Source: Clytia hemisphaerica (Eukaryota; Cnidaria; Hydrozoa; Leptothecata; Clytiidae). From it: a DNA stretch of 64,000 nucleotides. The DNA lies in assembly GCA_902728285.1 (NCBI GenBank), contig CACVBU010001358.1, positions 3,248,067 to 3,312,066 of the forward strand, read 5' to 3'. The first letter of the stretch is position 1. Every line of letters begins with the position of its first letter. A program made the position numbers and the translations under genes. The notes below the pieces were generated by a model. The model was not told the DNA's origin and ran no database searches. It saw only the letters and a list, made by a program, of their open reading frames with translations. This document shows, in pieces, positions 5,076-38,883 of this stretch.

Positions 5076-5508
5076 CTTTAGGCGTACAAACTTTCGCGAG
5101 CAGAAACTTTCGCGAGGACGAAAAATCGCGAAATTCACGACATTTACTTTCGCGAATTTAAACGGAAAAATATTTTTCGCGAGCATAAACTTTCGCAAAT
5201 CAAGACGTAAAATTGAGAATTTTCACATTAAAAAATGGCTTAGAGAGACAAATACTTCTTAAATTGGCTTGAAACATTTGTCCTTTGACTTATTAGTCTT
5301 TTAGCAGGCTAAAAAGTGCCATAAAAGTTACATTTTATTCAAAGTTTGAAGTTTTACAGATTTTTTATTTTGTCAAGAATTTTTCGCAAGCAAAAACTTT
5401 TGCGAATGGCCCTTCCTAGAATTGTTAAAGACATTTACTTTCGCGAAAAGGGCCAAAATTCGCGAAAATCGCGAAAGTTTCTGCTCGCGAAAGTTTGCAC
5501 GCCTAAAG
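5076..5508. mobile_element. TA-flanked MITE, CTTTAGGCG / TTTCGCG family
   Basis: Terminal inverted repeats begin CTTTAGGCGT(A/G)CAAACTT, followed by TCGCGAGCAGAAACTTTCGCG at both ends. A TA dinucleotide flanks each side (5,074-5,075 and 5,509-5,510). Non-coding. TA duplication and short TIRs fit a Tc1/mariner-type non-autonomous element. A shorter relative lies at 10,959-11,100. Confidence 0.8.
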
Positions 5509-5710
5509 TAAATCAACGATATTCTTATGTGTAAATAAGCGACATTCGAAAACGATGGCTTTCGCGAATATATTCAAGGACAATCTTATTAAAAGCTGTG
5601 AAGTGTGTGGTGTACTCAATATAATGATAAGTAAATACGGTGATTTTTGATTTTTACTCTTTTGTGTCGACTTTTTGCGATTTTTGTGTGCAAAACGAGG
5701 AACAGTTTAA

Positions 5711-6244
5711 CTTAACAGAAGAATTCATAGGAGAGGGACGAAATGTCTTCTGATAATGAATCATCAAGGTAGGGCACGTCAAAATTCGAGGGCACGTCGA
5801 AATTCGAGGGCACGTCAAAACTTGAGGGCACGTCAAAATTCGAGGGCACGTCAAAATTTGAGGGCACGTCAAAATTTGAGGGCACGTCAAAATTCGAGGG
5901 CACGTCAAAACTTGAGGGCACGTCAAAATTCGAGGGCACGTCAAAATTTGAGGGCACGTCAAAATTCGAGGGCACGTCAAAACTTGAGGGCACGTCAAAA
6001 TTCGAGGGCACGTCAAAATTTGAGGGCACGTCAAAATTCGAGGGCACGTCAAAACTTTGGGCACGCAAGCACGTAAGCACGTAGGCACGTCGGGCACGTA
6101 GAATTTCGGAGGGCACGCGAGCACGTAGGCACGTTGAGCACGTAAGGCACGCGAGCACGAAGGCACGTAAGGCACGTAGGGCACGAAGGCACGTCAAAAA
6201 AATGAGGGCACGTGGGCACGTAGGGCACGTCATTTAGCAGACTC
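5711..6244. repeat. 18-bp GGCACGTC minisatellite, copy C
   Basis: Same orientation and flanks as the copy at 1-408 but with more units (about 16 clear 18-mers from 5,774) and a unique 25-bp stretch between left flank and first unit. The right edge ATTTAGCAGACTC runs into a fragment of the 42-bp repeat. Confidence 0.9.
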
Positions 6245-6299
6245 CTGACAGTTTGATATTACGACCCGACGTTTTGATTTTGACACCGATCTGACTTTA

Positions 6300-6715
6300 T
6301 ACTCTTACACTGCTTGGCCACGGTCCACAGTGCTCACATATACAATTTTTACACTGCCTGGCCACGGTCCACAGTGCTCACATATACAATTTTTACACTG
6401 CCTGGCCACGGTCCACAGTGCTTACATATACAATTTTTACACTGCCTGGCCACGGTCCACAGTGCTTACAGATACTATTACACTGCTTGACCACGGTTCA
6501 CAGTGCTTACAGATACAATTACACTGCCTGGCCTCGGTCCACAGTGCTTACATATACAATTTTTACACTGCCTGGCCACGGTCCACAGTGCTTACAGATA
6601 CTATTACACTGCCTGGCCTCGGTCCACAGTGCTTACATATACAATTTTTACACTGCCTGGCCACGGTCCACAGTGCTTACAGATACTATTACACTGCTTG
6701 ACCACGGTTCACGCC
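6300..6715. repeat. 44-bp tandem array with hairpin core
   Basis: About ten units of roughly 39-44 bp, each holding CACTGCCTGGCCACGGTCC then ACAGTG, so every unit has a CACTG...CAGTG inverted core. Spacers alternate between a CATATACAATTTTT and a CAGATACTATT type. A lone core occurs 44 kb away at about 50,316-50,350, so the unit is dispersed. Confidence 0.85.
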
Positions 6716-7410
6716 TTAGCGAAAGTATTGTGATAGACTTTCTGTGGTGAAGTTGGAGAAAAATGTAGAAAACGAAAGTAGTCGGGTGGATAGACTCACT
6801 AAATTTAACTATCAGTTATGTATCACAAATTTTTACAAGCTAGTTTAACCACGGAATCTTTTCGCGCGTTTTCTAAAAATTACGTCATGAATACTTTACT
6901 GGCCTAGTACTGTGGAGAATGAATGCCAACGGCTGTGAACTGCCTAATTAGCTCCACAGTTTAGAGCGTACGGCTGTCCTCCAAAGTAATTCAAGCTTGA
7001 ACATTGAAACATTTTTGGAAATTTTCTAGAAGGTTACGTTGTTAACGTTTCAGTGTATCAAATTCTTGCAAAATAGTGGAACTCAAAATATTACAAATCA
7101 GGAAGAAATAGTAAGTATAAACTTTCAATTTGCTTTTCCAGTTCCACATAGAGTTATTTATCTGGTGGATCTGTTTCAAGCACCTTTTTTGCCCTTTCAC
7201 ATAGTGAGGCTGAGGCACTTTTTTTTGCCCTTCAGATTTATCTGCACCGCTTCCGGGCTGCTGAATTTGATTGAGGTATTTTTTTTTTGTCCTTCAGATT
7301 TAAGCACTGTATTGGCCACTGAATCTGACTGAGGCACCCCGTGGCCAGGGCAAGTTATATCTTGTGCCTGCGACCGAACAAGCTGTACGATATCGACAGC
7401 TCTAAATAAA

Positions 7411-7509
7411 CCAGACCCGATCAATCGAACTTGTCGAACCAATCGAACAATCGAACTAATCGAACTCCATCGAACGATTAAAGTTCGATTAAAAAAATTA
7501 ATCGAACTT
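7411..7509 (+). repeat. Left 99-bp TIR of the 16.3-kb transposon
   Basis: Identical, base for base over 99 bp, to the reverse complement of 23,606-23,704. Rich in AATCGAAC words, with one ATCAAT word near the tip. The two ends diverge abruptly after ATCGAACTT. Confidence 0.95.
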
Positions 7510-7539
7510 AATCGAACACTCACAATTTTACCGGAAATT

Positions 7540-7975
7540 GGAGTTCGATTAGTTCGGTAAGCTGCTTCGGATTAGTTCGATTAGTTCGGTAAGCTGCTTC
7601 GGATTAGTTCGATTAGTTCGGTAAGTTGCTTCGGATTAATTCGATTAGTTCGGTAAGCTGCTTCGGATTAGTTCGATTAGTTCGGTAAGTTGCTTCGGAT
7701 TAGTTCGATTAGTTCGGTAAGTTAATCTACGGATTAGTTCGATTAGTTCGGTAGGTTAAGCTACGGATCAGTTCGATTAGTTCGGTAGGTTAAGCTACGG
7801 ATTAGTTCGGTAGGTTAGCAACGGACTAGTTCGATTAGTTCGGTATGTCACGTTAGTCCGTTAGCTATGGATTAGTTCGATAGATTCGCTACGGATTAAG
7901 TTCGATCAGTTCAGTATAGGTTAGCTACGGATTAGTTCGACTTATTCTGTAGGTCAGATCAGCTAAGGATAAAAA
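7540..7975. repeat. Left subterminal array
   Basis: About 12-15 degenerate units of roughly 33 bp with the core GGATTAGTTCGATTAGTTCGG separated by TAAGCTGCTTC-like spacers, decaying inward. The matching right array carries the complementary word CGAACTAATCGAA, so the arrays are inverted with respect to each other, as expected of protein-binding sites inside transposon ends. Confidence 0.85.
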
Positions 7976-9317
7976 AGTTCGGTGAGTATAAAATCAGTTC
8001 CGTTTAAGTTTAAGGCTTAGGCTGATATTGATAAGTTTGATTAGTACGATTAATACATATCAGAAGCCATTAAAAATACGGTTATTCTATCTCTCCACCC
8101 CGATACCTTCAAGTTGATCGTAATTTTGAAATTACACACATCGTAAGTTTTTTCAAACTCTCCACTGACTTCTTTCCTGATTTACAGGGGTTTTATAACA
8201 AAGAATAAAAAACTTTGAAAGCGTAATTGGTAATCATGACCACTCCGCGCTAAAGACTATTAGTCCAAAGTTTTGAAAATTTTTAAAGATTTTTGCGTCT
8301 AGCCAACAGGAAGCCGTTTGGAGGCGCAATCAGTCCTGATTACCCATGATCTATTTCGACTGTGAAATGGCCTATGCTGATTCAACCACAATTTTTTTAT
8401 TTATAGTCGGATTGGAAAATCTCTCTCAGAACGCAAATGATTGAACCACATCTTGGGAAATAAAACAAGTAAGAAAAATTTTTATATAACATGCGCCGTC
8501 CCCACGCCGTCCCCTTTAAAGGAAATTTATGGAGCAGGCCCGGCGGAAGCAGATAGACTAGGGAGACTGAAAGAGAATATAAAAACATATGTTTAAATAT
8601 TTGTTTTTATACATATTCTCTTTGGGAGACTTCATCCTCCCCCTTTTTTTCTCAAATTCCTAGTAAAGTTTATACTAGTCACACCTAATACCTAATATAC
8701 GCTTGCTAAACACTATTAGCTGTATACCGTTTGTTTCTATTTTATGTACTTAACGTTGGACTATCTATCGCATTCCTTTGGACTAAGACAGAAGACGACA
8801 CGACGATGCATTCGTGAAGAAAATATTCAAAGTTACCGATGAACTTTCGTTATTATCAAGGAACATTTCTCTAATCGGTTCCAGATCTTAAATTTGATGT
8901 ACAGTACAGCTGTTCCAGACAAAAAAGACGATATATGAAAATATTTGAAAGCCTTTTTTTATATTAATGAGCTAATCAAAAAGGTGGAATTAACGGATGG
9001 GCTAATAGGTTATCGATATTGCCCTCGCTTTAGATCGGTATTAAGGGAAAATAATAGGTTGCGGTAATTGGTACTTCAAGAACATCAGATTTTTAAATCT
9101 CTATTTCGGTGTTTTCGGTCAACTATCGGTGTCAAGGATAATTAAATTTAGACAAATTGCGAATACTGTAGGTAAAAACTTTCAATAAATAAAAAAGCTA
9201 AGGAATGCTGATATACCAAGATAATCAAATTTAACTCCTAATAATTTTGACTCGATTGGCTTGGGGATAAAAAGAAGCTTGGAAAACGAAATAGAAAATG
9301 TTTGTAAATAATGTATA
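7976..9317. other. Non-coding interior of the transposon
   Basis: No gene recognised. About 8,221-8,330 matches a dispersed repeat seen again at about 56,715-56,815 (AAAGATTTTTGCGTCTAGCC). An imperfect hairpin, AGAGAATATAAAAACA...TGTTTTTATACATATTCTCT, lies at about 8,571-8,624. Confidence 0.55.
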
Positions 9318-12063
9318 TCAATCTTCTTCCTCGTCACTACTAACAATAACAGTTTTTCGTTTTTCTTTTGGCACCTCGTTGACGTACTGGCCACGTTTGT
9401 ACTCCCCGATCTTCTCTTTCCTTCGCGAATTGTAAATCCAATTTGTGACCTGAAAGAAATAAGTTAGTCTATGAGTATAAGATATACCTTACTTTGGGGT
9501 GCTTGATAAACGCAACCCCCTAGAGACTTTATACTAAATAAATATATATATATGACAGTCAGCCTGTCCCAAGCCAGGATAAAGACAGAGGGACCCAGAG
9601 AGGACTAATTACCCTTTCATTATAACATCGTCTCTCTAAGTGGAAAAAGAATTCGGCCATTCTTTGTTGTTTGTAGATCTGACAGGAGAAAACACTTTAT
9701 TTTCATACTATATATATATATAAAAAAATGCAATTCATTGTTTCTCCACTATTACTTTTCTTCTATCTTCATTTGGATTAGGTTTTTCTTTCACATACCA
9801 CTATTTAAATTCCCTTTAACTTTTTGCTAAATTACCCTCTGTTTCGGAATGATTAAAAAATAAAAAATACCAAAAAAATCGTAAATACACACAATAAACA
9901 AAAATATTCTTAACTTTTTTCGTTTTTATCAGTTTGAGTTATTTATATATCAATACTTTTCTTTTTCTAAAATGACAGATATTACATATCTTCACTATAT
10001 ATATATAGTATATCTATATATTTTTAGAAATCTTTAAACTTCGCGATTATATATTATAAGTTTTCATTACCTGCTGTACACTGCATCCTGCCATTTTAGC
10101 CATAGCCTTTTTTTTTATTAATGGAGGTTTGCCATCCTCCTTCATGAATTGCTCGTCCAGCATCGCCTTTTCCACCTCCGAAAATTTTGCAGGACCTTGT
10201 CCAGAACGTTTTCTCTTTACTGATTGTGCTAAAAGGAGAAAACAAGACATGAGAAGCTTCTTGCAAAATCAAAATGGAGTTTCAGCCCCACTGGGAAATC
10301 GACTTTTATTTCACCCCCACTCGAAATTCAATTCTTAAAAATTTACACTCCAAAACCATGCCCACTTCACATAGAAAAAGTTCCCCGGGGCTGTGAGACA
10401 GGGGTGTCTTCAATAAGCACATTTAAAAAAACAAGCATCTCCTTATAGTTATATCCAAATGATTTTTTTCTATTTGTACTTTCGACTATGAGATTCCATT
10501 GCGCGTACTAAGTAAAATCTGTTTTTGGTGAAAACAGAGTTATTTTTCTGTTATAGAGTTCATTAACAATTATAAAAATAAATTAAGTTTAAATTCAATT
10601 TTCTTACTTGAATTGACAGCTACCTCCTTCAGATCATGCTGCTCCTCTTCACTGTCCAAAAAACCTTTAATCTTCAACCAGATTTGTTTTCCGTCTTTCG
10701 TTGCCGTTGGTGTTTTGTTCAGCAAATCTGACAACGTTCCTTTGGAGCGTCCTATATATTTGGCAAAATCGACCCGTCTTACGTGGTTGACCGTCAGCCA
10801 CGCGATGATTTGTCGTTGAATCTCCTCCAAATCAACGTTTGGTTCGTCATCATCCTCAACTGTCGGCTGAAAAAGCAAATGAAATAATTAATCGTAAATG
10901 TCTAAAGTTGATTTTATTCGGTGTGAATTAATTTTTTTTAGCGGCAGACTTTACAACTGTTTTAGGTGTACAGATTTCGCGAGGAGAAATTTGAGCGATT
11001 TTCACGAATTTTGGCCTTTTTTGCAAAAGTAAATGTCAGAAATTTCGCAATTTTTTGACCTCGGGAAAGTTTTTACTCGCGAAAGTTTGTACGCCTAAAG
11101 TACCTCCTTTAGATCTTTTAGATTTTTTTACGAAAACCCCCAGAATTTATCGAAATTCCGTGTAATCTTCCTTAGATATTTCTTTAACCCAAGATCACGC
11201 ATTTTCATATTGTATTTAGTTAATTCATACCCTTCCCCTCCAGTAGAGTTAAGTTTGGTTTATTGAGAGAGCAAATTTCCAAAATTGGCCTTTTTAGCGT
11301 CCCTTGGCTTTCGGAGTCTTGAATTAATGGGCCCTACATGTACCCTAATTTAGCTAAGTCAATGCTTTAAAAAACCTACTACTTCCTTAAAATTAATTCA
11401 CCAAACGGCCCGGACCTTACCAATGTGGATTTCTCAACCACGTCCTCGGTCTGAAAATCGACATCGTTCATCTCAGTGTACTGGATATTATTTTCTCGCA
11501 GCAACGTAAGTATTCGTTCTTTTTCTACCACTGAAAACTTGAGTTGAAAAGACTGAAATCAAAAATGAAATTTTTCGTCACAGATTTGCTTCTACGGGTT
11601 CCTAGGCAAGCAATCACTTATTAACTTTGTATCATAGCTTTATATTGAATAAATATTTTAGTGAAATTTCTTCACAGTGATGACCTCCAAAGACCAAAGA
11701 ATCTCTCCAGTGAAAATCAAAGTTATAGCACTTCTCTACAAGATCTTCATTTTTTTCTTCTTCATTTTCATCTTCGTTTTTAGAATTCTTTTAAAGACTT
11801 TTTTACTTCAAATTGTTCCACTCACAAATATCTATCCCACGATACCAAATTTATAAAGAACGAAGAATTCCTTCAAAAGTAATAGCGAAAAGAAAAAAGA
11901 GTGCACACTTATCGTGAAAAGCCAGCATTCCCAGCTATAATGCGGTAGTTTTGCTAATATTTGAATTGACCCAAAATAAAATTAATTTTAGAATCGTACA
12001 AACCTCCGCTTCTGAAATGTTATGACTGCTACTGCCTTGATCTGATTGCGTTTCAGAATCCAT
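9318..12063 (-). CDS. CUT-homeodomain protein, five exons
   Basis: Exons (minus strand, 5' to 3') are 12063-12004, 11552-11421, 10866-10608, 10228-10071 and 9449-9318. All introns are GT-AG, phases agree, and they give 246 aa from ATG to TGA. Residues about 78-137 resemble a CUT domain, with GTLSDLL at 107-113 matching its conserved helix. Residues about 160-219 form a divergent homeodomain whose third helix keeps W207, N210 and R212/R213 (WIYNSRRKEK). The C-terminus TVIVSSDEEED resembles a SUMO-interaction motif. Expected role: nuclear sequence-specific DNA binding. The gene lies wholly inside the 16.3-kb transposon, so it may be cargo or part of the transposition machinery. Exon 2 repeats a KFSxVEK motif found in homeodomain helix 1. 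It could be closer to another CUT/SATB-type subfamily; the class is firmer than the subfamily. Confidence 0.85.
10959..11100. mobile_element. Short CTTTAGGCG-family MITE in an intron
   Basis: The right end, GCGAAAGTTTGTACGCCTAAAG followed by TA at 11,101, matches the element at 5,076-5,508. The left end (TTTTAGGTGTACAGATTTCGCGAGGAG) is degraded, so the left border is approximate. It sits in intron 2 of the CUT-homeodomain gene. Confidence 0.65.
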
Positions 12064-12478
12064 TTTTTCTGCCTGGTTTTGTTTGCCTTGTTTGTAGGGA
12101 AGTCAGTCACAGAAAGAAAGAAAAAATGTTTTGTGTGTGTATTCTTTTCGAATAAGGCCCTATTTACTTGCAATAAACGTTCGATTCGAATGATAACAAT
12201 GTAAAAACAATGTTTTAAAACCTCGGATACACTTCTTTTTGGAATGTTGTTACGCAATACTTTTTTTGTAAAAGGACGCCATGTGTTTGTTGAGTTTTGT
12301 TTTTTTATTGTTGAGCATGAAAATGGATGTCTGTGTTTTGGATAAATGTTTATATCGGTTTTTGTATTTTTTATTTCTTTTCTTTTTAACCCTATAGTTT
12401 CCATCACCAAGGGAGGGGGATGCTAGGGTAGGATTTGGACTGTCTTGAACTAAAAATGTCTCTTGTTGTGAGTATACC

Positions 12479-12837
12479 CCGGGGGGGGGGGGGTACTAGG
12501 TTTGCAAGGTGACGGGTATGTCCGAGCCGAAAATCGAAAATCGACCCTTTGAGAGACAAAATCTTGGTGATTTTGAGACCCTTTGGGAGACTTTTTCCTA
12601 AATTTTGGTCCATCTTTTCCAAATTTTGGTTTGATTGTCACCAAATTTTGGTCAAAATTTTTGGAATTCGTGACCCTTTGAGAGAGAAATTTTTGATTTT
12701 CGTGATTTTGGGACCCTTTCAGAGACTAACTTTTGAATTTGTACCCCTTTGAGAGACTTTTGAGGAATGAGAAAGGTACCCTTATGGCTCGCACATACCC
12801 GGCACCCGTTTTGCCTAAGTACCCCCCCCCCCCCGGG
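12479..12837. mobile_element. G-tract MITE, copy 1
   Basis: Ends are (C)CCGGG followed by a long G run and TACT, mirrored at the right as AAGTAC, C run, CGGG. AGTATACC lies on both sides (12,471-12,478 and 12,838-12,845). The interior repeats a GACCCTTTGAGAGAC word. Non-coding. An 8-bp duplication suggests mobilisation by a hAT-like transposase. Confidence 0.85.
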
Positions 12838-13216
12838 AGTATACCTCAACTCGACTGTCCTTTCTAAGGTTCCGAATTATGGGGGAGGGGGTAGGGTCCG
12901 AAATTCGAATTTTTTCAAAATGTATGTACCAAAACGAGGGGGCAAGGGGGGGGGGCTAAAAACAATTCGAAAATAAGTTGTTATCTAATTTTGAATTTTC
13001 AAGCATCAAAATCTATTAATGAAAACCCTAGGAATATTACTCCTACCAAGAAACATGTGGATGAGCTTTACGGACTCTCATGTAGAATCAATTTTCGAAT
13101 CTGAGCAGCACACTTCCGTCAGTCGGCAACGGCCAAATACACTTCTCTTCTCTGCTTCTCTGAATCACATCCATCCTCCTTCGTAGATGTTTTTTTCTCG
13201 AATTTTCGCGGTAACT

Positions 13217-13375
13217 AATTCATGATATTCATGACGTAATGTTTTCTACGGAAGCAACCCGGTTTTAGCCCGTAGTAGCAAACTTTAGCTAGAGGAAAGT
13301 TGTTCAAAACTTGCCACTACTGGCAAAAACTGGGGTGTTTCAATTAAAAACATTACGTCATGAATATCATGAATT
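13217..13375. mobile_element. Short palindromic MITE, ATTACGTCATGAAT type
   Basis: AATTCATGATATTCATGACGTAATG at the left is mirrored by CATTACGTCATGAATATCATGAATT at the right, with about 100 bp between. No target duplication is evident. The ATTACGTCATGAA word is shared with the element at 20,589-20,787 and with about 6,880. Confidence 0.6.
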
Positions 13376-13484
13376 TTTGCGGCGAAATTCTTTGATTACC
13401 CTAGCAGTATATATGTATAGTGTCCCCCGGATAGGTTCACGCAAATATAAGTATCTTTGGTTTACGAAATATGACAAGTAAATA

Positions 13485-13789
13485 CTTTAATGGGATAAAC
13501 TTTCGCGGGGATTAAATTTTGCGGATTCCTCGGATTTGGGTGTCATCCGCGAAATTCCGCGAAATTAAGTCCCAATGGAAATTTGAAAGGGCCTCATCCG
13601 CGAAATATTTCTAAACAAAACTCAAAATATGTCAAATAAATACTGTTTGGATGGTTACTTGTAAATGATGTGTATTTCAACAACCAACACGCACGATTTG
13701 ACAGTAAAAGTCACAAAATCGTGAAAATATTGCCACCCAATAGTGCCAACCGCGAAATTTAATCCCCGCGAAAGTTTATCCCGTTAAAG
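13485..13789. mobile_element. TA-flanked MITE, CTTTAATGGG / TTTCGCG family
   Basis: TIRs start CTTTAATGGGATAAACTTTC (right end CTTTAACGGG) and continue GCGGGGATTAAATTT. TA lies at 13,483-13,484 and 13,790-13,791. Non-coding; about 90 bp upstream of the intron acceptor side of a second similar element. Confidence 0.85.
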
Positions 13790-13809
13790 TAGCTGTACAT
13801 CGTGTATTA

Positions 13810-13975
13810 CTTTACTGGTATAAATTTTCGCGGAGATTACATTCCGTGGATCACTTTGTTAAGGAATGTTTTAAATATTTCGCGTATAAAGCTTCTTATA
13901 ATTCTTTTAATTTTCTTAAGACACATACGCAAATCTGCAAAATTAAAACTTTCGCGAAATTTTACCCCATTAAAG
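13810..13975. mobile_element. TA-flanked MITE, CTTTACTGG / TTTCGCG family
   Basis: The left end CTTTACTGGTATAAATTTTC is mirrored by GAAATTTTACCCCATTAAAG at the right, each with a TA outside. It lies 20 bp from the element at 13,485-13,789 and just upstream of the HIRAN gene. Confidence 0.7.
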
Positions 13976-14042
13976 TATGAAACCATGTGGCAAAAACTTA
14001 TAGCCAGAGTTTTTGTTTCAGATTTTACTCTTAACGTACAAA

Positions 14043-14953
14043 ATGCTTTGGAAAATAGAGATCTTTACAAATTCCAAGGGTTATCATGATTGCGAGTTCA
14101 GAGTTTCCATAGACGAAAGGTTTTTGGTAAGGAAGGTCAATGGACAACATGGTAAATCGCTACAAGTCTATGATAGTAGGGGAATCCTTGGCCACGTAGA
14201 AGAGGAAGCTGCTTTGCTACTTTACGATCTTCCAATCATGAACATCCTCTGGTAAGTAAAATTTTCAAACCATGTGAAGTCGTGTAGTGTAGTTGAGCCT
14301 GCTCGATTATCGAATTTTAATTTTATTAATTTGGGTTAAAGTAGAGTTTCAAAAGCCTTTTTTTCTGGAGAACAGTCTTGTAAAATTTGGTTTACATACC
14401 TCTGATACGTTCTTTTCATAATTTTGGAATAAACGAGACTGATTTTCTTTTTCTTACTTTAATCTTCTTGACTTTCGTTGTCATACATACCTTAAAGGAA
14501 CACATTTTCGCAGGAACAAATTTTCCCAGAATCTAATTTCGCAGCTTTTTGACTAATCTGTTAAACACGAATATTCTCAGGGTTAAAAAAACCACCTTTA
14601 ATATTTCTAGGGTAAAATAGGCAATATAGTAAATAAAAAATTCTCTAAACGACGAAGTTAAATTCTGCAAAACTTCTGAATTTAGAGTTGTGAACCGCGA
14701 AATTAAATTCCGCGAAAATCTCTTCTTGCGAGAATTTCTTCCCTTAACTTATCAGTATATAATGTACGCACAAACATTCTGAATTTTCAGTGAAGTCATA
14801 GCAAATCCGATTCCAGACAGGCATGGAAGATATAGACAAGGAGGAGGGCTAAATGTTCCAATAAAAATGACGTTTTTAATGGCAGATCATGCTGAGGAAA
14901 CAATAAGGCAGTTGAGAAGAAAAAATTACGGCGTATCATCAACACATTATTAA
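14043..14953 (+). CDS. HIRAN-domain protein, two exons
   Basis: Exon 14022-14251 (first ATG at 14,043) joins 14791-14953 through a GT-AG intron; TGT is completed across the junction, and the frame runs to TAA, giving 123 aa. The sequence around RFLVRKVNGQHG and GILGHVEEEA matches the HIRAN fold's pattern: a charged strand, a variable loop, then a small glycine/histidine-containing 'IGHV' strand followed by a helix. ILCEV and GGGLNVPI after it recall the CEV...GLEVP segment of animal HIRAN proteins. HIRAN domains bind DNA 3' ends in HLTF. A TTTGTTTCAG acceptor precedes the first exon in frame, so an upstream exon or trans-spliced leader is possible. A poly(A) signal AATAAA follows at about 15,005. 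Lies inside the 16.3-kb transposon. Confidence 0.75.
14490..14749. mobile_element. Degraded CTTAAAGG / TTTCGC MITE in the HIRAN intron
   Basis: The left end TACCTTAAAGGAACACATTT and the right end TTCTTCCCTTAACTTA are imperfect inverted repeats, with CGCAGG and CGCAAGAAG words inside them as in the related elements. Borders are approximate. Confidence 0.5.
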
Positions 14954-15189
14954 GCTTAATATCCGACTTCAGTTGTTTCAATTTTGTATTGTACGCTATT
15001 TCCAAATAAAGAAATAAAGAAATTTATCAAATACCATTTGTCTTTATTAAAAAATTTTGGAAAAAAATATCCTTTATCCACCAATTTTATTTTTTTTTCA
15101 AGTCAACCGAATTAAATTTTTGCCAAATTTTTACTTTATTTTTGGATGGTTCTTTTAAAAACTTTTTAAAGCTGTAACTCTTTTCTTAG

Positions 15190-18100
15190 ATGTCAATTGG
15201 TAAAAAGTACGAAGATATAAGTAGAGAACTAAAAAATAAAGGCTACGAAAGTCATTTGAATTTATCAGAACATGACTTCAAATGTATATGTTCATCAAGT
15301 CCAATTCTTGTGAAAGATGATACACAACTCATGTGGATTATAAGACGTCATTCGCTGTCAAAATGCCACAAAGATATATGCGGATGGTATCTAAATAATG
15401 AATATGAAGTTACGCCTCTTCAAAGTAAGCGGAAACTTATTATCAGGGTTCGATCATAGACTTATAAAGCCCGAAGGGCTAGATGTCGTACTTTTGCTGA
15501 AAAGAAATCCTACCTCGCTGTGCGAGGATACTAAATTTGCTATAGTTTTGTTGGTTGCATCAGTCAGAAAAACACATTTTATACACGACAAATATGAAAT
15601 ATTCACTATGGTCAGAGCCCTTCAGGTATAAGCTGTTTTGTTTGTTCTGGGTGTACACCTAATGCAGTCGTTTGTACTGTTTACATTGAATAATTTACTG
15701 TATTTTCTTTTTAGAGCATGGGATATCCACCTTTTTCAAACCTGGTAAGCGACCATCAGCAGCACGAAATGAGCCGGATAAGAGAACGAGAACAGATTTT
15801 CCAGGATCAGTCGCGGTAATTTTCCTTATTAACTTTCTTGAAATCAAACCCGATAATAGGGGGAGTTTAAGACAAGACCCTTTTTAATGGTATTTAGGTA
15901 TCCCGGAAACCCACCTTGAAGTACTTTGTATTTTCAAGGCAAGCAACTCCACTTCAAACCATCGCTTAATTCCGATTCTAGCTCGTTTTGAAAACTTAGA
16001 AAGTTTTTTTCTGTTTTAAGAAACCTACCAAAGAAAGTGACAACTGGCAATCGTATACTTTAACAAAGAAAGACAAAGAGCCTTCTTGTATATCAAATCA
16101 GGTAATTTCATAAATTTATTTTTCATTAAGCTGTTACATTGTATAAGGATCCAGGACATAAAATTTCCGTACGCAAATTGAATTCGAAGGTGAGAATAAA
16201 AATACCAGTGTGCTTCCGATTTTTCCACCAGGTTTTGTCTAGAAAGCTCCGGGAATAAAAACACAGAGTGTGAAATCGTTTCCTCTTCTTTAGGCTAAAG
16301 ATAAAGAAAGAGCTTTGGGGCGGCAAAAATCGAGCTTTGTGAACATTTTATCGGAGCAATATGAGCGTGAAGATCGAGTTTCTGCGGAAAAAGAGGTACA
16401 ATGGTGCTACGAAGCAAATCTTTTAAAGAAAGAAACGAAAGTTCTCCGTGTAGAAAATCAAATCTCAAAGTCTATGCAAAATATTCAAAAAGAACGTATG
16501 ATTAATTCAATGAAAACGCAAAATCAAAGGATGATGAAGTTTTTCGAGAACCAGGCTGCTAAAGCTCTAGAAGAATCCACGATAAAGATTCAACATGCAT
16601 TGCAGTGTGTGGATGACGCTCAGCTAGAAGTCTCACAGAACCAAGCGCGTCTTTTCGAAATAACACACTATATGAGCAGTCAGGTAATTGTCAAAACGGT
16701 CTTTTCTTCTTTTTTTGCTGCTTTTCGTAACGTAACTTGTGAAAACTGTAAGCTCTACCTTATCGGCCAAAACTTAGTCGGCCAAAGTGACAAAATTTTG
16801 GCTTGGTGACTAAAATTAGGGCCGAATAAAAATTTGGGCCGACTAGAAATTTGGGCCAAATTAAAAGTTTATAATTAAGCTTTCTTTATTTTGCAGTATT
16901 TTAAGCTTTCTCCTGTTTTCCACCTGCTTGTAAATCTAGAAATTTTTAGTCGGTCTTAATTATAAGTCGGCCCTTAGTGACTAAATTTTGACGAGGTGAC
17001 TAACATTAGGGCCGACTAATAATTAAGGCCGAGTAAGTTTTGGACGATAATCTAATAACAGCAGCTGTAGGTTCTGGCATTTCTTGTGACAAATAAGTTC
17101 TTTTTTTTAGCAAACGAAAAATGATTTGAAAACTGCAATCTCGGAGAAAAATGTGGATAGTGAATTCATTGAAATTGCAAAACGCATCCAGGATATCTCA
17201 AAATCATCTTCCGACCTCCACATCATTTTGAAAGACATTATAAACAATTACGGAAAAAAAGGTATAAATAAGTCCACATTTTAACACCCCTGTCTCAATG
17301 ATAAAGACGGTGGAATTTCAGGGCTTCGTTCTAATTGATGATATGAGACCTCCCCACTGGGGAATGGGGCCTACTCCTTACGAAGTATTGGAGTAGTGGT
17401 ACCCAATTCCCCTCACATAGTATGGGTTGACCCGGGCGAAGGTATGTTCACTAGCCAAATGAACCGTAGTACTAAAGTGGGAATTGAACTCGGACATCCC
17501 AGACGAGAGTTAAACGATGACCACCACACCACTTCGTCTGTCTAATTTGAATTGTTTTTACTTATTTATTTATAATATTTTTCAATCGATAATGGGAGCA
17601 AAACACGAAAACTAAAGTTTATTAATGACGCACCTATATTTTTACAGGAAAACGATGGTCAGACGAAACAAAGACACTTTTTACAGTTGTACTGGATTAT
17701 GGTGGCGTCTCTGCCGTAACCCCATTGATCGAGGCTCTAGGAGGACCAAGCACATCGACTTTATTTAAGGTATATTAAGTAAATGCATCAGTTGTTGTAC
17801 TGGAGGTGAAATGAGTGAAGAAGTTTTATTTTATTTTTGACGCTTTTGACCTTTTTAAAGGGATCCGTGTTACAACCAGGTTCTTATTCGTTAAGTAAAG
17901 GGAATACACAAAGGAATCGATAAAACCCTTCAAATTCTGCAAAAATGTCAAGAAATTTATTTTCCAAAATAAAAATACTGGCCAAAATACTCCTTCCGAA
18001 TAAGGTTGCCTCTTTCTCTCTTATTTTAATTTACAAATTGCTATACTTACGACGTTCAACATCACTTCGGTTCTCTCTTCTACAGGTTGCAAGACCAACG

Positions 18101-21100
18101 TTTAAAATTCAAAGCTCCATCAAAGAAGAATCTTTCCGTTACGCTTCGCAATTTTACGATGAATACAACTACCTTCCCGGGCCATTTATTCTCTCCATTG
18201 ACGCAACTACAATCATCGCAGCTCTTAGGATACGGGGTAACAAAATTGTCGGCTATGCTACCCAAGATGAAATTATTGCTCACAGTGCTGAAGATATAAT
18301 CAAAATGGTGAGTGAAGATCTATCAAAAGCAAAACAGGCAACACTCTTCCTTCTTTCTCCGGTCATCGAAAAGGTTCCATGTTGCGTCGTCTCAATAAAC
18401 CCAGTTATCAAAGGCGAAAATTGGAATACTGTGGACGATTGGTTCAAGACAGCTAGAGGCTACGCAAGAGCATGTAACATAGATATTATTGGTGTTGGTG
18501 CTGATGGTGATGGAAAGGTGAGGCATTGTAAAGGTGGCTATCAAACTTTGAAAATGTTTCTTTTTAAATCTTAGAAATCTTTTAACTTATGATAACTAGA
18601 TATAGTAAAAAGTCTGATAGGTAGCAAGTAGCTTTAACTAGGATTGGTGTCCATATAATTACTCTTTCAGTATTTGTTAGAGTTTTCATGATAGTCCGCG
18701 GAAACATGATTTTCAGTAAAAATCCGATTAACCACAAAGTGACATAGTTTAACATATATGAATCTACAACATCGTATATTTCTTTATTTTGAAGGTGCGG
18801 AAGTTCTATCAAGACCAATTCATCGACTCACCTCATGCTGATCAAAGTCTTCAGATCCCAGGTCTACTTTATATGTCCACACTGACCGAAGAAAATGGAA
18901 AAAGCATACCTAATCTTCCATTTCCTGACTGGAAACATCTTGTAAAGAAATGGCGCAATCAACTTCTTAATGGAAAACGTCTGTTGATTCTAGGGAAATC
19001 TATGGTAAAATTGGAGTATTTAATGGAAGTACTTTTGAAGTAAGTTCTTCAACAGAAATCTTGTTTTGATTTTCTTTTCGCTCGTGTACGTCTCAGTAAA
19101 TTCATTCTACGTCGGTGAAATAATGTAGGTAAAACATTCGTTTACACGGTCATCTAAAGAACAATGTGAAAAAGAAAGGATACATACAGCAATAATTTAT
19201 TACGTCATTGATTTACGTTTCATTTCTCAGGTATCCAAGATCTTCAAACTTATGGGCTACGGATGTTCACGTTAGAGATAAGCAAAACGTCGCTTCAGCT
19301 AAACGCATCCTGCAGCCTGCTGTGCGAACATGCTTAAGGGAGCTCGAACACGATACGAAAGGTCTCGAAGCGTACCTCGCGATTGGGGAGCGTATTCTTA
19401 ATGCTTTTGACTCGGACGTATCAATGACTCAAAGAATTTCCGATATTTGGTGTGCAACAATTTTTGTGCGTTATTGGAAAACATTCCTCGAAATCAAAGA
19501 AATGGATAAGGATCAGCATTTTATAAGCCAACAGACGTTCGATGACATCGTCATAGCTGGCCATTCGATCATTTTGTCCGCTGCCGTGTTTGGCCGGTAC
19601 TATCCAAACGTAAAATATTCTCCGCGACTTTTTGGCTCTGACAACTGTGAAAAGTTTTTCAGTCAGCTCCGAGGGTTTGTCCGTGGGAAGCCTAATTTCA
19701 ATTTAATGGAAATGATGGACTACGCAGGAAGGTAAACTTACATTTTCCGAAGTGATACACTGTGAGATTGAGCTTCGCCCATGGTTCTTGTTTAAAATAC
19801 CTTACCTTACCTAAAGTTTGATCGATTGACTTTTCGACTTATCCTTTTTCTTGTAACAAAGGAAAATTATGATGAATAACATGAAATGTATTTCTTTCGA
19901 AAGTTTTTTACAAAAACTGTCATGGGAAGGCTGTATATGCGTTTATTTAATTTCGCTGCCTGTGCCGGGTGATGATATTACTTACTTACTTACTTTTTTT
20001 CATTATTAATTTCTTCAGATTGCAAAAGCTTGCTGAAATCACTAAAAAGGCACCGATGACACCATTAGATCAACAGTCCAACAGCAACAATATCGGCGAT
20101 GAGGAAATTGTCAAGGCCATGAAGAAAGGAGCAGAAGAAGCCCTCGCAATCCTCAAGGACTTGGGAATGACAAAATCTTTGGAGGAGTTTCATTTTATCA
20201 AGACTGATGACACCGGTGCAATCTTTGTCATCAATATTGACTACCTTGGCTGGAAGGGTGGATGGTCTCAGAAGAATGACATTGACGAGAATGACATCAT
20301 TTCTTTCGAAGAGCTGACAGACCTCTCAAATGGATTTCTTGTTAATGCCATCGAAACTAACGAAGAGACGAGGAGTGAAGTATCCAATGCTGTCACTGAA
20401 TTAATTATTCAAGGTGCTTGTTTTGTTTATATCTTTTGATACTCTTATGGTTCAAAATAACGTTTCCAAGGTTTTTATATTATATACAGAGGGTTTATGT
20501 CTCAAGAGACGACATTAGGACACTCTTGTACTTTGAGCACAGGGGCAGCAAAGGAAGTTGTCGTATAAAGGTGGATTATATGCCAATAGACCTTTTCATA
20601 AATTACGTCATGAACATCACTTGCCTCGTTTTGAAGTTATTGTCAAGGTGATTACCTCCCAGTGGATTTTATTAGAAGTACTTTCTATTCATAAAAAAAT
20701 CATTTGATGTCTCAAGGGACATAATCACCATGGTAATTGTTTGAATACGAGGCAAGTGATGTTCGTGACGTAATTTATGAAAAGGTCTATGAGGCGCAGG
20801 ATCTTTCATTTCTGGATTGCTGATGAAGAAAAGAAATTTTAATCATTATATTTCTCTCGACAGGTCCATCGAATGAAGAAATCGACGTGGAGGACCCAAG
20901 TCAATGCAACATGTATAATGACAAAAAGTGCAAGCTGGCAAATTCGCGAACGCGAAAAAATATTGACTGGGTTCAGTGTGACGTGTTGTCATGTAGGCTA
21001 TGGTTTCACGCAACATGTGTTGGGCTAAGCTTTTCTTCAACAACGGAGAGAGAAAATTTCATTTTTAACTGTCCCTCACACAAATCGATAGTTTACAGAG

Positions 21101-22129
21101 CAAAACTTGACGCTGGCCCGAGCCAACTGACCAACGAACAATCGATCCATATTACCCAAGTTACAGCAGCAGTAGCTAATAACAACCGCAAATTGGGAAC
21201 TGTACGGTCAGGTAAAAAAACAAACTTAATTTTAAATCGTTTAGCCTCTATTTATAATCGATTTATTCTAGATTACATATGCGCGGAAACTAATTTTCGA
21301 AAAATTCAATGTAATTATAACTTAAAGGCTAATCTGAAATTCACTGTACGAGAGTAAATGTTGCGAAAATTAAATTCCTTAACACACCTCCATGTCAGAG
21401 AGTTTTGTGCGCAAAAATTTCAGGTATTAATAGTCGTCGTTAGCCATTTGAAGGGCATAAGATGTTTTTTTGGTTTTATTATCAGGTCCAAACTATGTAG
21501 AATATGAGGGCAATACGTATCATATTGCACAGTTCCTCGCTATTCAAACCGGAAGATCGTACACACCTATGGCGTCGCGAAAAGAAAGGTGGAAATCCTC
21601 AAATATGGACAATTACTTCGATAAAATTCGTCGTGATATCGGTGATATTTGTAGCGGCCAAGTTGCTTTTTTTGTTGATCACGAAGAATCCAAGAAGGTA
21701 AAAAAGCTGGGAACCATTGTCAGGGTTATTAAACGATTTTCTTCAAAGTCAACCGCCATTTTATCATCCGGAAAAGGATCGGAATTAAGCCAATTACAGC
21801 TTATAATTCAACGTTCAACTAGTGTTGAGAGTATTATTAATTCAGACGAATTCGCCAATATTTCTGGAAAAAACATTATCAAAATATGCAAGTCATTGAA
21901 CAAAGATACAATCACTGAAGCTGAAAAAGCCTTTGACAACTTCGCAAAAGATCCGGTAAACAAACCAAAAGAGTTGGAACCACAAGAAATGACAGTTGTG
22001 CTATTGAAAAAGGTGTTGACTGAGAATGGAGTCTCTTATAAGAGCAAAGATAGGAAGCCCGAATTAATAAACAAATTGAAGGAAGTGCTTGAAAAAAGAG
22101 CACAAGAAAAACAAAAAAACGACGATTGA
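15190..22129 (+). CDS. 12-exon protein: coiled coil, DDE-like core, PHD-like, SAP-like
   Basis: Exons: 15190-15424, 15715-15815, 16021-16101, 16294-16683, 17111-17261, 17648-17769, 18086-18517, 18795-19039, 19231-19731, 20019-20413, 20864-21211, 21486-22129. Every intron is GT-AG and all phases agree: 1,214 aa. Residues 140-319 are coiled-coil-like. Residues about 390-740 look like an RNase H-like transposase core: SIDAT (D399), GADGDG (D500/D502), then after a long helical insertion GSDNCEKFFSQLRG (E726), a pattern recalling P-, hAT- and Kolobok-type enzymes. Residues about 899-957 carry PHD-like Cys/His spacing (C-x6-C, CDVLSC, WFHATC, CPSH). Residues about 1,164-1,204 resemble SAP (VLLKKVLTENGVSY...ELINKLKEVL). 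Near the N-terminus a CIC...SKCHKDIC cluster may bind zinc. I infer the transposase of the surrounding 16.3-kb element; a domesticated or unrelated nuclease-fold protein is the alternative. An acceptor-like TTTTCTTAG abuts the ATG. Confidence 0.85.
17290..17535 (-). mobile_element. tRNA-derived SINE in intron 5
   Basis: Read on the minus strand, GTGGTGTGGTGGTCATCG resembles a pol III A box and CCGAGTTCAATTCCCAC a B box, about 35 bp apart with CGTCTGGGATG between, as in Glu/Asp-type tRNAs. A non-tRNA body follows. The 5' end is near 17,535; the 3' end is approximate. Confidence 0.6.
20589..20787. mobile_element. TA-flanked MITE in intron 10
   Basis: TIRs start GACCTTTTCATAAATTACGT and continue through CATGAACATCACTTGCCTCG, nearly perfect over more than 40 bp. 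TA lies at 20,587-20,588 and 20,788-20,789. It lies in the intron between the central helical exon and the PHD-like exon of the large gene. Confidence 0.8.
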
Positions 22130-22964
22130 AACTATATTATTATCCTTTATTTCATCGATATAAAAAATCCCTTATATCCCTTAAAATCCCTTAAAAATCG
22201 TCTTAATGATTTACAAATAGTTGTCCCATTATTACAAAGCGGTGCTCTAGAAACTAAACTAATCTCATGAATGTTGATACAGTACTACTTCGAATAAACG
22301 CCCCAGGTGTTTAGTTTATTAAATTTTTATGTAAAAAGACGATTCTTAGAAAAGATTACCGCATTACTTCGAAAAACATCTTGAACATCCCCTTCCTTTG
22401 AACGCCTTCTCGAATAAATGCATCTCCTTTACACCCGCTTCTCACAGACCCACTGGAACCCTTTCTACTGGAAAATTGGCAAAAATATCGTCACCAGTGG
22501 AATATTATACTCTAATTTTTGTCCCACTGAAAATAACCACTGAAAATAACCAGATAAGCAAATCCTCTCACTGCAAAATATTGTGCTATTTTTTTTCATC
22601 CCCACCAAATTTTTTGGCTAGAAATCAATGAAATTCAAGTCTCCGCAACCAAAAAGAATAAGGGAATATCAATCCCCATCGAATTTGGGTCCGTTATTTT
22701 CTACCCCCACTGGCTGATAAAATCCCACCGGATCTATGAGAAGGGAATGTTCGCTAGGAGAGCTGGAACACTTTGTACTAAAACGTTGTACTAAAACACT
22801 TAGCGTCGTTAACTCCCGCCCTTATTAGTTTGCTAATGTTATTAAATATTAATAATTAGACTATACTATACTTTTATCTATCTTATACTAATCGAATTAT
22901 GTCGTTATATATCAAACCCGAGTTTAAAAATAAATGTATTCAATCGAAATAGTCGCATTGTGCC
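22130..22964. other. 3' flank of the large gene; no gene seen
   Basis: The first plausible poly(A) signal after the stop codon is AATAAA in ACTTCGAATAAACGCC at about 22,286. Otherwise AT-rich sequence with no recognisable feature before the MITE. Confidence 0.45.
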
Positions 22965-23309
22965 CCCGGGGGGGGGGGTACTGGGGTTGGTGAATGAGGG
23001 GTATGTGCAGACGGGACCTCCGAAAACCGACCCTTAGAGAGACCAAATTTTAGTGAAAAAGTGACCCTTAGAGAGACTTTTTCGAAAAATTTTCTCTGAT
23101 TTTCAAAAATTTGAGACTTTTTTGTAATTTTTTCTCTCAAAATCAAAATTTTTTTCTAAAAATCGTGATTTTTCCCACCCTTAGAGAGACTACTTTGAAA
23201 TTTCCTGATTTTTGTAACCCTTAGAGAGACTTTGAAAGGTGAAAAACCCGACCCTTACCGTCCGCACATACCCAGCACCTATTTTTGCCTAAGTACCCCC
23301 CCCCCCGGG
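22965..23309. mobile_element. G-tract MITE, copy 2
   Basis: Ends CCCGGGGGG...TACT and AAGTACC...CCCGGG flanked by an exact 8-bp duplication ATTGTGCC (22,957-22,964 and 23,310-23,317). The interior repeats CCCTTAGAGAGAC four times, as in the copies at 12,479 and 54,657. Confidence 0.9.
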
Positions 23310-23329
23310 ATTGTGCCTTTAGCGAGCTA

Positions 23330-23600
23330 GCCGAACTTTGTTTTCGTCGAACTGATCGAACTTTGTTTTATCGAACCTATCGAACCAATTCATTTAATCG
23401 AACTACTCGAACCATATATCAAACGAATTAGTCGAACCAATTCATTTAAACGAACTAATCGAACCATATATTAAACGAACTAATCGAACCATAAAGGTTA
23501 ATCGTACTAATCGAACTATGTATTGATCGAACTAATCGAACCTTTTCGAACTTAATCGGACTGGTCGAACTTAATCGAACACTCACAATATTTGAAAAAA
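23330..23600. repeat. Right subterminal array
   Basis: Irregular units of CGAACTAATCGAACC with AT-rich spacers (CATATATTAAA, CAATTCATTTAA). It is the complementary-strand version of the left array's word but with different spacers, so only the short word is kept at both ends. Confidence 0.8.
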
Positions 23601-23605
23601 ATGGA

Positions 23606-23704
23606 AAGTTCGATTAATTTTTTTAATCGAACTTTAATCGTTCGATGGAGTTCGATTAGTTCGATTGTTCGATTGGTTCGACAAGTTCGATTGATCGGGT
23701 CTGG
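23606..23704 (-). repeat. Right 99-bp TIR of the 16.3-kb transposon
   Basis: Exact reverse complement of 7,411-7,509, ending GATCGGGTCTGG and followed by the AATAAA target duplication. Perfect identity implies recent insertion or end homogenisation. Confidence 0.95.
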
Positions 23705-23921
23705 AATAAATATATAACAACAACAACTAACATAGTATAGATATACTTAAATTGTCGGTTCACTTTTCACAGTTCACAGCTGTTTTTTTATAAATCTTTA
23801 TTATTATAGATTGAATTTTTTAAGAGATACTTTACACCATCAGACTTGTAAAAAATATTTTAGTCAGAGGAGAGACAAAGGTTTTATTTTTATTTTGCAG
23901 CGTTTCTGTGTGATATAAAAA

Positions 23922-24867
23922 ATGATATCAATTGTATTGTACCGTGCACGTATAGGAAGCTTTGCTTTCACAGCTCAAAGAAACATGAAATGTATCACTA
24001 AATCTATTGTTCTTGGTTCTGAACTTTCCAATGATGCTCTCTCAAAACTATTGAGACCTGTTCGTTTCGTAGCTAGCACTTTTAACCCTCCTATGTTTTG
24101 CGATCCCAAAATCATTTGAACCAACAGAGGTTTTCACACCTTTAGATTTTAATTGGTTTTCAAGAAATGGAATTTTTGTTGAGTATCCCAATGCAGTGCA
24201 CAAATTAGGAGATGAAAGCCTTATTTTTCTCAAAGTGAATAACACACTTCTACTATCAGGTGATGTAGAACTTAACCCTGGTCCTAGTGTTCAAGGTTCT
24301 TTTCATCAGGGTAACCGTAAATTCGGTGAGACAGCAGGTATTCAATGCTCGTCAAATTGTTTTTTTGCTATTTGCTATGCCCAATTTAGAAAATTATCAT
24401 TGTGGAAGACTCATGATTTGGATTACGTTTTAGACCAAGGCGATCTGAATTTCAAAAAGCTGGGTATCGTTGGTAACTCCCCATATATTGAAGAGTTTTC
24501 AAGATCTATTGATATAGGAGGAAGTATGTGTGCACTAAATTTCAATATTTTTGAAGGTTATTTTGAGACTGATAATATTACGGTAAATTTTGTTCAGGAG
24601 GAACTCCTATTGCAGCATTCTGGTGCAGTTTTAGTGATAGCTGGAAATTGCTTAGCTGTAATGCACTACAACAAAAATTATTTTCTTTTTGACTCGCATA
24701 GCAGAGACTCTGAAGGCCATCAAATTGAAAGCGGAATTGGAACTTCTGTTCTTTTAAAGTTTGACAGGTTACAAGAAATTAAACAGTATATAAGATCTGA
24801 GTATAAGAACACAAATCTTTTAACATTATTTATCTCAAAACTGATTTTTGTAATGAGAAAAATATAA
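23922..24867 (+). pseudogene. Helentron leader, 2A peptide and cysteine protease (frameshifted)
   Basis: An open frame from ATG 23,922 runs to 24,119, and the message continues from about 24,103 in another frame after a shift in a CCCAAAA run. A 2A motif sits at 24,247-24,285. After it comes a cysteine-protease-like domain: GIQCSSNCFFAICY (candidate nucleophile Cys), and LFDSHSRDS with an Asp-x-His pair, as in herpesvirus-tegument-type (C76) and OTU-like deubiquitinases that are known partners of Helentron Rep-helicases. The frame is lost again near 24,838. The assignment is to the fold class; exact family is unsure. Partial copy at 38,884-39,505. Confidence 0.7.
24247..24285 (+). other. 2A ribosome-skipping peptide
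   Basis: Encodes LLLSGDVELNPGP, matching the consensus DxExNPGP with the usual leucine-rich upstream helix. Translation is expected to release the N-terminal leader at the final Gly-Pro and continue into the protease. Known from picornaviruses and animal non-LTR and other transposons. The same DNA is at 39,200-39,238 in copy 2. Confidence 0.9.
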
Positions 24868-25548
24868 AAAGTACTATTTCGACAGAAGTCATACGTAGAC
24901 AAAGAAATGCTTCATATAAGAGATCAGTCGAGAAAATCAAAGGCACTGAAAAGTATAAAGATTTATTGCAACAAAAAAATGTTTCTCTTAAAAGGTTACG
25001 TGAAAAAATTCAAGGCACTGATAAGCATGAACAAGAAAAGGAGAAGAAAAGACAGCGTCTAGAATTGATTAAAGGATCAGAAAACATGAAAATGAAAGGA
25101 AAATAAGCGTAGCGCTGCAAAATCTCTTTATAACTATAACAAAAAACTGAATTTAGGAAAAAGGGTTGAGAATTTCAAGCAGAAAAAACAAGACGGTCCA
25201 TATTTTATATGTGTAATATGTAACCGAGGCTTGTATAAAAAAGGAGTAATTACTTTTGATGAAAAGAAGTACACAATTGGCCTTGACGATTTGGAAATTG
25301 ATCCTATTGCCTCCTATGACAGCAATTTCTATATATGTAAAACTTGTCATAAAAAACTAATTAAAAATGAAATTCCATGTCAATCTGTTTCTAATAAACT
25401 CCAAGTTTTTAATCTCCCTGACCATTTGAGTGATATAAGAAAACTGGAAAGAATTTTAGTAGCACAGCGGATTTTATTTTCCAAAGTCATGATCATGCGC
25501 AAGGGGGATTCCCTAAATTGCAGGGTGCTATATGCAATGTTCCGATAG
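24836..25548 (+). pseudogene. Helentron linker and DUF6570-like zinc domain (frameshifted)
   Basis: From about 24,836 to 25,106 a basic, repeat-like region encodes IKGTEKYKDLLQ and IQGTDKHEQEKEK, ending in TAA. The frame resumes from about 25,096 with a zinc-finger-like segment: FICVICNRGLY, then FYICKTCHKKL, then a basic helical region ending near KLERILVAQRILFSKVMIM. This arrangement precedes Rep in many animal Helitron proteins. The frame breaks at a GGGGG run at about 25,502-25,506, where one extra G would join it to the downstream Rep-helicase frame. Confidence 0.65.
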
Positions 25549-33127: not shown

Positions 33128-33166
33128 CATCACCACCAAAATTAATTTAAACTCTCTAACATCAAT

Positions 33167-37682: not shown

Positions 37683-37685
37683 AAA

Positions 37686-38021: not shown

Positions 38022-38883
38022 AGGGATTTCCCTGACTGATTGTGATAGACTTTCTGTGGTGAAGTTGGAGAAAAATGTAGAAAACGAAAGTAGTCGGGTG
38101 GATAGACTCACTAAATTTAACTATCAGTTATGTATAACAAATTTTTACAAGCTAGTTTAACCACGGAATCTTTTCGCGCGTTTTCTAAAAATTACGTCAT
38201 GAATACTTTACTGGCCTAGTACTGTGGAGAATGAATGCCAACGGCTGTGAACTGCCTAATTAGCTCCACAGTTTAGAGCGTACGGCTGTCCTCCAAAGTA
38301 ATTCAAGCTTGAACATTGAAACATTTTTGGAAATTTTCTGGAACTCAAAATATTACAAATCAGGAAGAAATAGTAAGTATAAACTTTCAATTTGCTTTTC
38401 CAGTTCCATATAGAGTTATTTATCTGGTGGATCTGTTTCAAGCACCTTTTTTGCCCTTTCACATAGTGAGGCTGAGGCACTTTTTTTTGCCCTTCAGATT
38501 TATCTGCACCGCTTCCGGGCTGCTGAATTTGATTGAGGTATTTTTTTTTTGTCCTTCAGATTTAAGCACTGTATTGGCCACTGAATCTGACTGAGGCACC
38601 CCGTGGCCAGGGCAAGTTATATCTTGTGCCTGCGACCGAACAAGCTGTACGATATCAACAGCTCTAAATAAATATATAACAACAACAACTAACATAGTAT
38701 AGATATACTTAAATTGTCGGTTCACTTTTCACAGTTCACAGCTGTTTTTTTATAAATCTTTATTATTATAGATTGAATTTTTTAAGAGATACTTTACACC
38801 ATCAGACTTGTAAAAAATATTTTAGTCAGAGGAGAGACAAAGGTTTTATTTTTATTTTGCAGCGTTTCTGTGTGATATAAAAA

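Follow-up and report, generated by a model that had tools for sequence, protein, structure and literature searches.

What kind of mobile element occupies positions 7411 to 23704 of a 64-kb stretch of the hydrozoan Clytia hemisphaerica genome (contig CACVBU010001358.1, positions 3,248,067 to 3,312,066; hereafter the window), and is it a member of a described superfamily? Our analysis makes it very probable that this is an autonomous cut-and-paste DNA transposon, apparently intact and inserted recently, which belongs to a diverged family of 13–18-kb elements that each carry three genes: a transposase, a CUT-homeodomain gene and a HIRAN-like gene. At the level of sequence, the ends, the 6-bp target-site duplication, the empty site, the open genes, the conserved cassette and a set of short relatives with the same ends are all directly apparent; placement of the family depends on the predicted fold of the transposase, which is weighed below.

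Ends, empty site and relatives of the element

A first-pass annotation of the window had described a single insertion bounded by perfect 99-bp terminal inverted repeats (TIRs) and AATAAA duplications, and both its coordinates and this reading are borne out by the exact ends and an uninterrupted AATAAA site elsewhere in the window. The features of the element are:

7405..7410, no strand: left target-site duplication AATAAA, from sequence comparison
7411..7509, plus strand: left TIR, 99 bp, starting CCAGACCC..., identical to the right TIR
7544..8048, plus strand: left subterminal array of TTCGATTAGTTCG-type repeats, from a motif scan
9318..12063, minus strand: CUT-homeodomain gene, 246 amino acids, 5 exons (12063-12004, 11552-11421, 10866-10608, 10228-10071, 9449-9318)
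14043..14956, plus strand: HIRAN-like gene, 123 amino acids, 2 exons (14043-14251, 14791-14956), GT-AG intron
15190..22129, plus strand: transposase gene, 1214 amino acids, 12 exons, all introns GT-AG, one terminal stop
23348..23540, minus strand: right subterminal array of the TTCGATTAGTTCG-type motif, in mirror orientation to the left array, from a motif scan
23606..23704, minus strand: right TIR, 99 bp, ending ...GGGTCTGG, identical to the left TIR
23705..23710, no strand: right target-site duplication AATAAA, from sequence comparison
38667..38672, no strand: empty site with a single AATAAA, within the second copy of the repeat that flanks the element, from repeat alignment

The TIRs, whose outermost bases are 7411 and 23704, are 100% identical over their 99 bp, with no longer run in other registers within about 10 bases. 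The left junction reads ...CTCTAAATAAA/CCAGACC and the right junction GGTCTGG/AATAAATATATAAC, the slash marking the border of the element, and the empty site reads ...CTCTAAATAAATATATAAC with a single AATAAA at about 38667-38672; the copy that holds it is 99.4% identical to the left flank over 334 bp and 98.2% identical to the right flank over 850 bp. With up to two mismatches, the TTCGATTAGTTCG-type motif has 30 matches in the window, 19 starting at 7426-8036, 11 at 23348-23677 and none elsewhere, so that all are confined to the first 640 bp and the last 360 bp of the element.

Two outcomes would have told against the first-pass reading, an isolated locus or ends shared only with gene-less copies of a known family; searches of the organism's own assembly (417 Mb in 951 contigs) instead revealed three more elements with all three genes and related CCAG..CTGG ends. 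These lie at C232:135376-151634 (16,259 bp, exact duplication TTCAGA), C694:8214-26485 (18,272 bp, exact duplication TTTGCA) and C942 at about 37,468-50,847 (duplication TTTATT), the last with coordinates computed by hand from locus offsets. The C942 ends come from a scan requiring equal 6-bp flanks, so that their duplication was a condition of selection; an independent BLAST of both pieces starts at the same two bases. For C694, an outer 34-bp inverted repeat was considered as the end, and its flanks do not match; the inner CCAGGGG ends, with TTTGCA on both sides, were chosen afterwards. No ends were found in the 9.4 kb examined at C832 (the P0002 locus), where two end pairs from an equal-flank scan (11/14 matching bases, no CCAG ends) were taken as chance. 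Transposase identity to the window copy, by matched piece, is 61–87% for C232, 41–64% for C942 and 33–53% for C694.

The left 102 bp, used as a query, gave at least 40 end matches at 98–100% identity among those scored from 894 candidates. Of the 30 loci examined among these 40, 26 contain both ends of a short element of 584–1073 bp; the other four are unpaired, two being the window element's own ends. The 6-bp duplication described for the window copy recurs here, exact and no longer in 22 of the 26 short copies, which exceeds chance, with one mismatch in L024, two in L014 and three each in L028 and L029, which look like one insertion on two contigs. The 22 insertion sites lie in 22 different contexts, the only visible preference being for T at position 3 (16/22) and A at position 4 (19/22). 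These copies share little with the window element beyond the terminal 100–170 bp and short subterminal pieces, and their low pairwise difference (median 4.2%, range 0–12.8%) suggests a fairly recent non-autonomous spread.

The transposase and its P-like core

The third gene had been labelled DDE-like, PHD-like and SAP-like, a description that can now be sharpened to a P-like DDE core followed by a KDM5-like PHD finger and a HeH/LEM (SAP-like) domain. Its parts, all on the plus strand, are:

15190-15424, 15715-15815, 16021-16101, 16294-16683, 17111-17261, 17648-17769: exons 1 to 6
18086-18517, 18795-19039, 19231-19731, 20019-20413, 20864-21211, 21486-22129: exons 7 to 12
18200..19651: catalytic codons, D399 at 18200-18202, D500 at 18503-18505, D549 at 18927-18929 and H552 at 18936-18938 (together DxxH), E726 at 19649-19651
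20864..21211: PHD-finger exon, with the KDM5B and KDM5A PHD fingers as best solved relatives
21486..22129: exon with a conserved YxEYxGxxYHIAxFL block and the C-terminal HeH/LEM (SAP-like) domain

A further exon at about 17861-17990 (22 residues) was dropped because homologues run uninterrupted over that junction. The catalytic D, D, DxxH and E columns are invariant in all 14 aligned members, and in the window protein the spacing is 101 residues from D399 to D500 and 226 from D500 to E726.

Predicted models support a P-element architecture for the core, with D, D, E catalysis and DxxH. In the models of two homologues, the core consists of a helix-turn-helix (HTH), an RNase H fold and a helical insertion domain, and their structure alignment spans P residues 129-567; on the fold of these two predicted models, the signature of the P superfamily is present, an RNase H core with D, D and E residues, a [C/D]xxH motif that follows beta-5 and a helical insertion domain (excerpt of PMC8230255). 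Among the solved-structure matches the only P-type entries were 6p5a and 6pe2; Kolobok, MuDR and Dada structures were absent from the matches listed, which rules out none of these groups, and a viral fold library gave one match below 0.001, a Pandoravirus protein annotated as hAT.

A number of results weigh against a P-like core. The models represent not the window protein itself but homologues that share 40% and 45% identity with it over the core, and their mean predicted local distance difference test (pLDDT) scores are 64 and 59, falling to just 39–46 over RNase H residues of about 161-210 in the model of homologue P0011, which comes from Actinostola. Foldseek TM-scores are moderate (0.38–0.39 by query, 0.57–0.60 by target), and, with E allowed up to 0.5, none of the 14 members matched a Pfam transposase family. 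Profile comparison with P proteins gives a weak match (probability 12.5%; score 33.5 against 32.9 for the best of 60 shuffles), and the match to the P transposase alone is not significant (p 0.22). The P element uses guanosine triphosphate (GTP) as a cofactor, contacted by K385, K400, V401, S409, F443, D444, N447 and D528, and its cleavage leaves 17-nt 3' extensions (excerpt of PMC7776569); among the residues that could be placed, just V401 and perhaps D528 look kept. P K400 aligns with an invariant asparagine (N605 in the window) and V401 with V, within the motif DKQNV (DRQNV in one) of all 13 homologues, and the position three before the catalytic E, equated with D528 by distance from E, is D in seven, N in four and Q in two of the 13 (D723 in the window).

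One possible account is a plain P-superfamily element of the P/THAP9 type that has accessory genes and a shortened duplication. The predicted fold, aligned over P residues 129-567, and the signature speak for it, and for the same reason the 6-bp duplication does not set the element apart from P, so that its earlier use to exclude a P assignment was too strong. Against this account, the duplications made by P and by zebrafish P-like elements are 8 bp long, and the P transposase carries a THAP domain (excerpt of PMC7776569), whereas four three-gene elements and 22 of 26 short copies here have 6-bp duplications, and no THAP domain matched in the 14 members at E up to 0.5. P-specific Pfam models were silent on P0011 at E up to 10, whereas the same models match a THAP9 query up to 3.2e-45. 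Because two defining features of P, the 8-bp duplication and THAP, fail, we do not file the element as P.

Membership of the Dada superfamily, which the duplication length, DxxH, introns and protein size resemble (excerpt of PMC3706591), is improbable. Dada families target specific small nuclear RNA (snRNA) or transfer RNA (tRNA) genes, according to the same excerpt, whereas the 22 short copies are in 22 contexts, in which no search for RNA genes was made, and the window element lies in another repeat; the catalytic spacing of Dada-U6_DR is 68 and 176 (excerpt of PMC3706591), compared with 101 and 226 here.

Outside the core, the PHD finger is closest to those of KDM5B (1.5e-6) and KDM5A (4.7e-6). 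The KDM5A PHD finger reads trimethylated lysine 4 of histone H3 (H3K4me3) through two tryptophans forming a methyl-lysine cage, and the RAG2 PHD finger reads H3K4me3 similarly. Both cage-position tryptophans are retained in 10 of the 13 homologues (W920 and W931 in the window); P0011 and P0012 stop at or before this region, and P0013 continues past it without a PHD finger. By analogy, the transposase PHD finger is predicted to read H3K4me3 as in RAG2. An N-terminal CxC..H..H stretch in the Clytia members resembles a BED-type finger by eye, with a Pfam zf-BED E of 0.1 in one member. Seven homologues (P0003 and P0005-P0010) have a long hydrophobic membrane-like C-terminal tail beyond HeH/LEM, which is missing in the three Clytia sequences; LEM together with membrane segments would suit an inner-nuclear-membrane location of these seven.

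The companion genes and the surroundings of the element

The spliced CUT-homeodomain protein matches an NCBI entry for Clytia hemisphaerica (P0014) with 100% identity. Pfam recognises its CUT domain (3.9e-9, above cut-off), with the homeodomain below cut-off, and a collinear match to HNF6/ONECUT extends across both (1.5e-4), giving the ONECUT-type arrangement of one CUT followed by a homeodomain. The mirror-oriented TTCGATTAGTTCG-type arrays are natural candidate sites for this protein. ATCRAT is a CUT-type site, and no enrichment of it was seen in the element ends.

The three spliced genes of the first-pass annotation all keep open frames across GT-AG introns; the HIRAN label is the weak part of that annotation. 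Five Clytia relatives (one partial) align with the HIRAN-like protein, and a profile of the six sequences is collinear with human HLTF HIRAN over columns 39-119, a marginal match (p 0.0011, probability 20%). Counting against the label, the HLTF HIRAN score of 24.7 exceeds the best shuffle by a marginal step (23.0; none of 100 shuffles reaches it), Pfam HIRAN recognised none of the six sequences, the window's included, and the window protein had no solved-structure match. In the protein database, none of 11 candidates reached E 0.001.

The persistence of this gene set was examined by protein searches of the genome, which gave 48 transposase, 36 CUT and 31 HIRAN-like rows (for the transposase, 38 of 340 candidates were scored), which, counting the window, cluster into at least 22 transposase, 24 CUT and 18 HIRAN-like loci. 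Within 15 kb of the 18 HIRAN-like genes lies a transposase in 14 cases, a CUT gene in 10, both in eight and neither in two, and all 14 transposase and all 10 CUT pairings keep the order and orientation seen in the window, with about 0.03 pairs of each kind expected by random placement. The cassette persists in C341, C450, C694, C832 and C942, where CUT and HIRAN-like pieces are 29–63% and transposase pieces 33–64% identical to the window's. Since it is kept in loci this diverged, the sequences indicate that both companions are part of the family, not cargo that a single copy acquired by chance.

Two points detract from this. At least one companion is present at 15 of the 22 transposase loci, and the other seven have neither in the scored rows; the cassette loci are also related copies, not independent captures, C882 being 87–97% identical to the window by most pieces and the HIRAN-like exons being nearly alike between C793 and C694 and between C832 and C540. 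It is nevertheless very improbable that the window copy picked up its CUT and HIRAN-like genes from the host by chance: the CUT protein does resemble host ONECUT-type proteins, and 13 of 24 CUT clusters lack a scored partner, but eight loci, window included, hold the three genes in one order and orientation, with the distant identities given above. The 13 partnerless CUT loci could represent host genes, relics or pieces of elements that were not scored. CUT genes at C25, C885, C822, C524 and C857, which are 61–89% identical by piece to that of the element and have no scored transposase or HIRAN-like gene nearby, are candidates for decayed copies or domesticated genes.

The element is inserted in one large repeat present in two copies (6727-7410, 23705-24551 and 31077-37014 against 38039-45469; compared pieces 98–100% identical), the first of which is broken by the transposon and by about 6.5 kb at 24552-31076. 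This latter stretch contains a 1455-residue open reading frame (ORF) with Helitron_like_N and PIF1 helicase domains, and because the second copy is without it, the Rep/helicase part may have inserted separately or may have been lost from that copy. The flanking repeat was first labelled a Helentron; the Rep/helicase ORF lies in the stretch missing from the second copy, which leaves the empty-site argument untouched. The second copy has an endonuclease-like ORF at 39682-40194. Upstream of the Rep/helicase ORF lies a 264-residue ORF (24073-24867) with a Pfam match to Herpes_teg_N (7e-10), perhaps a cysteine-peptidase-type domain. A gag-like ORF with a zinc knuckle (61183-62568) and a separate integrase-core (rva_4) fragment (53056-53577), both on the minus strand, are retroelement remains. 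Positions 1-6730 of the window are dense tandem arrays with units of 18, 21 and 41/44 bp, partly inverted, with 433-bp arms at 2541 and 5812 (96%).

Proposed mechanism and comparison with known systems

The 6-bp duplication and large size also recall IS3EU/GingerRoot and Polinton-type elements, described groups with 6-bp duplications, but such an identity deserves almost no credence: IS3EU elements end in TA..TA, and their core aligns with IS3/IS481 and integrases (excerpt of PMC10045372), against CCAG..CTGG and a P-like core here, for which IS3EU was rejected, and no Polinton gene (DNA polymerase B, integrase, capsid) was seen in the 10 of 27 ORFs scanned, a scan that a spliced gene could escape. 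Of the superfamilies described so far, those that make 6-bp duplications (IS3EU, some Dada) are a poorer fit to the element.

Taken as a cut-and-paste transposon with a P-like core, the element should, by its modelled fold and signature, work like the P element. The transposase would pair the ends and cut, and the 3' ends would be joined to target strands staggered by 6 bp. Its KDM5-like PHD finger, with both tryptophans kept, could tether the complex to H3K4me3-marked chromatin, as the RAG2 PHD finger does for RAG, and the CUT-homeodomain protein would bind the inverted subterminal arrays. The HIRAN domain of HLTF reportedly binds 3' DNA ends; because of this, and because P-type cleavage leaves 17-nt 3' extensions, the HIRAN-like protein may bind and shield 3' single-stranded ends. 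The short, non-autonomous copies would be mobilised in trans by three-gene elements of this kind.

We tentatively propose a separate superfamily, kin to P in fold alone, in which a P-like transposase is fused to a histone-reading PHD finger, the target duplication is fixed at 6 bp, and the element encodes its own CUT-homeodomain factor for the end arrays and a HIRAN-type handler of 3' ends, a division of labour that parallels RAG1/RAG2. The first-pass annotation had not recognised the gene combination as a described superfamily, and we likewise found no description of the three-gene set in CC-licensed PubMed Central papers. P elements serve as the model for one of the more unusual transposition mechanisms; a diverged and probably recently active relative would allow a test of which features of P are general, and would add to RAG2 a second, independent example of a PHD finger aiming a transposase. 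Clytia is kept as a laboratory animal, which would open the predictions to experiment in the host.

With P/THAP9 the element shares the predicted HTH, RNase H fold and helical insertion domain, the D, D, DxxH and E residues, subterminal repeats and introns; unlike P/THAP9, it has PHD and HeH/LEM domains, CCAG..CTGG termini and two conserved accessory genes, and the family measures 13–18 kb against 2.9 kb for the P element. Its duplication falls within the 6–7 bp of Dada, which, compared by description alone, differs in catalytic spacing, in the lack of a single target among our 22 copies and in the accessory genes. Dada proteins are also characterised by an N-terminal CCCC and a C-terminal CCHC zinc motif. 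IS3EU/GingerRoot elements likewise make 6-bp duplications, and fungal members bear passenger genes (excerpt of PMC12730594). Alongside these, the RAG1/RAG2-like transposons (ProtoRAG) are among the closest known systems.

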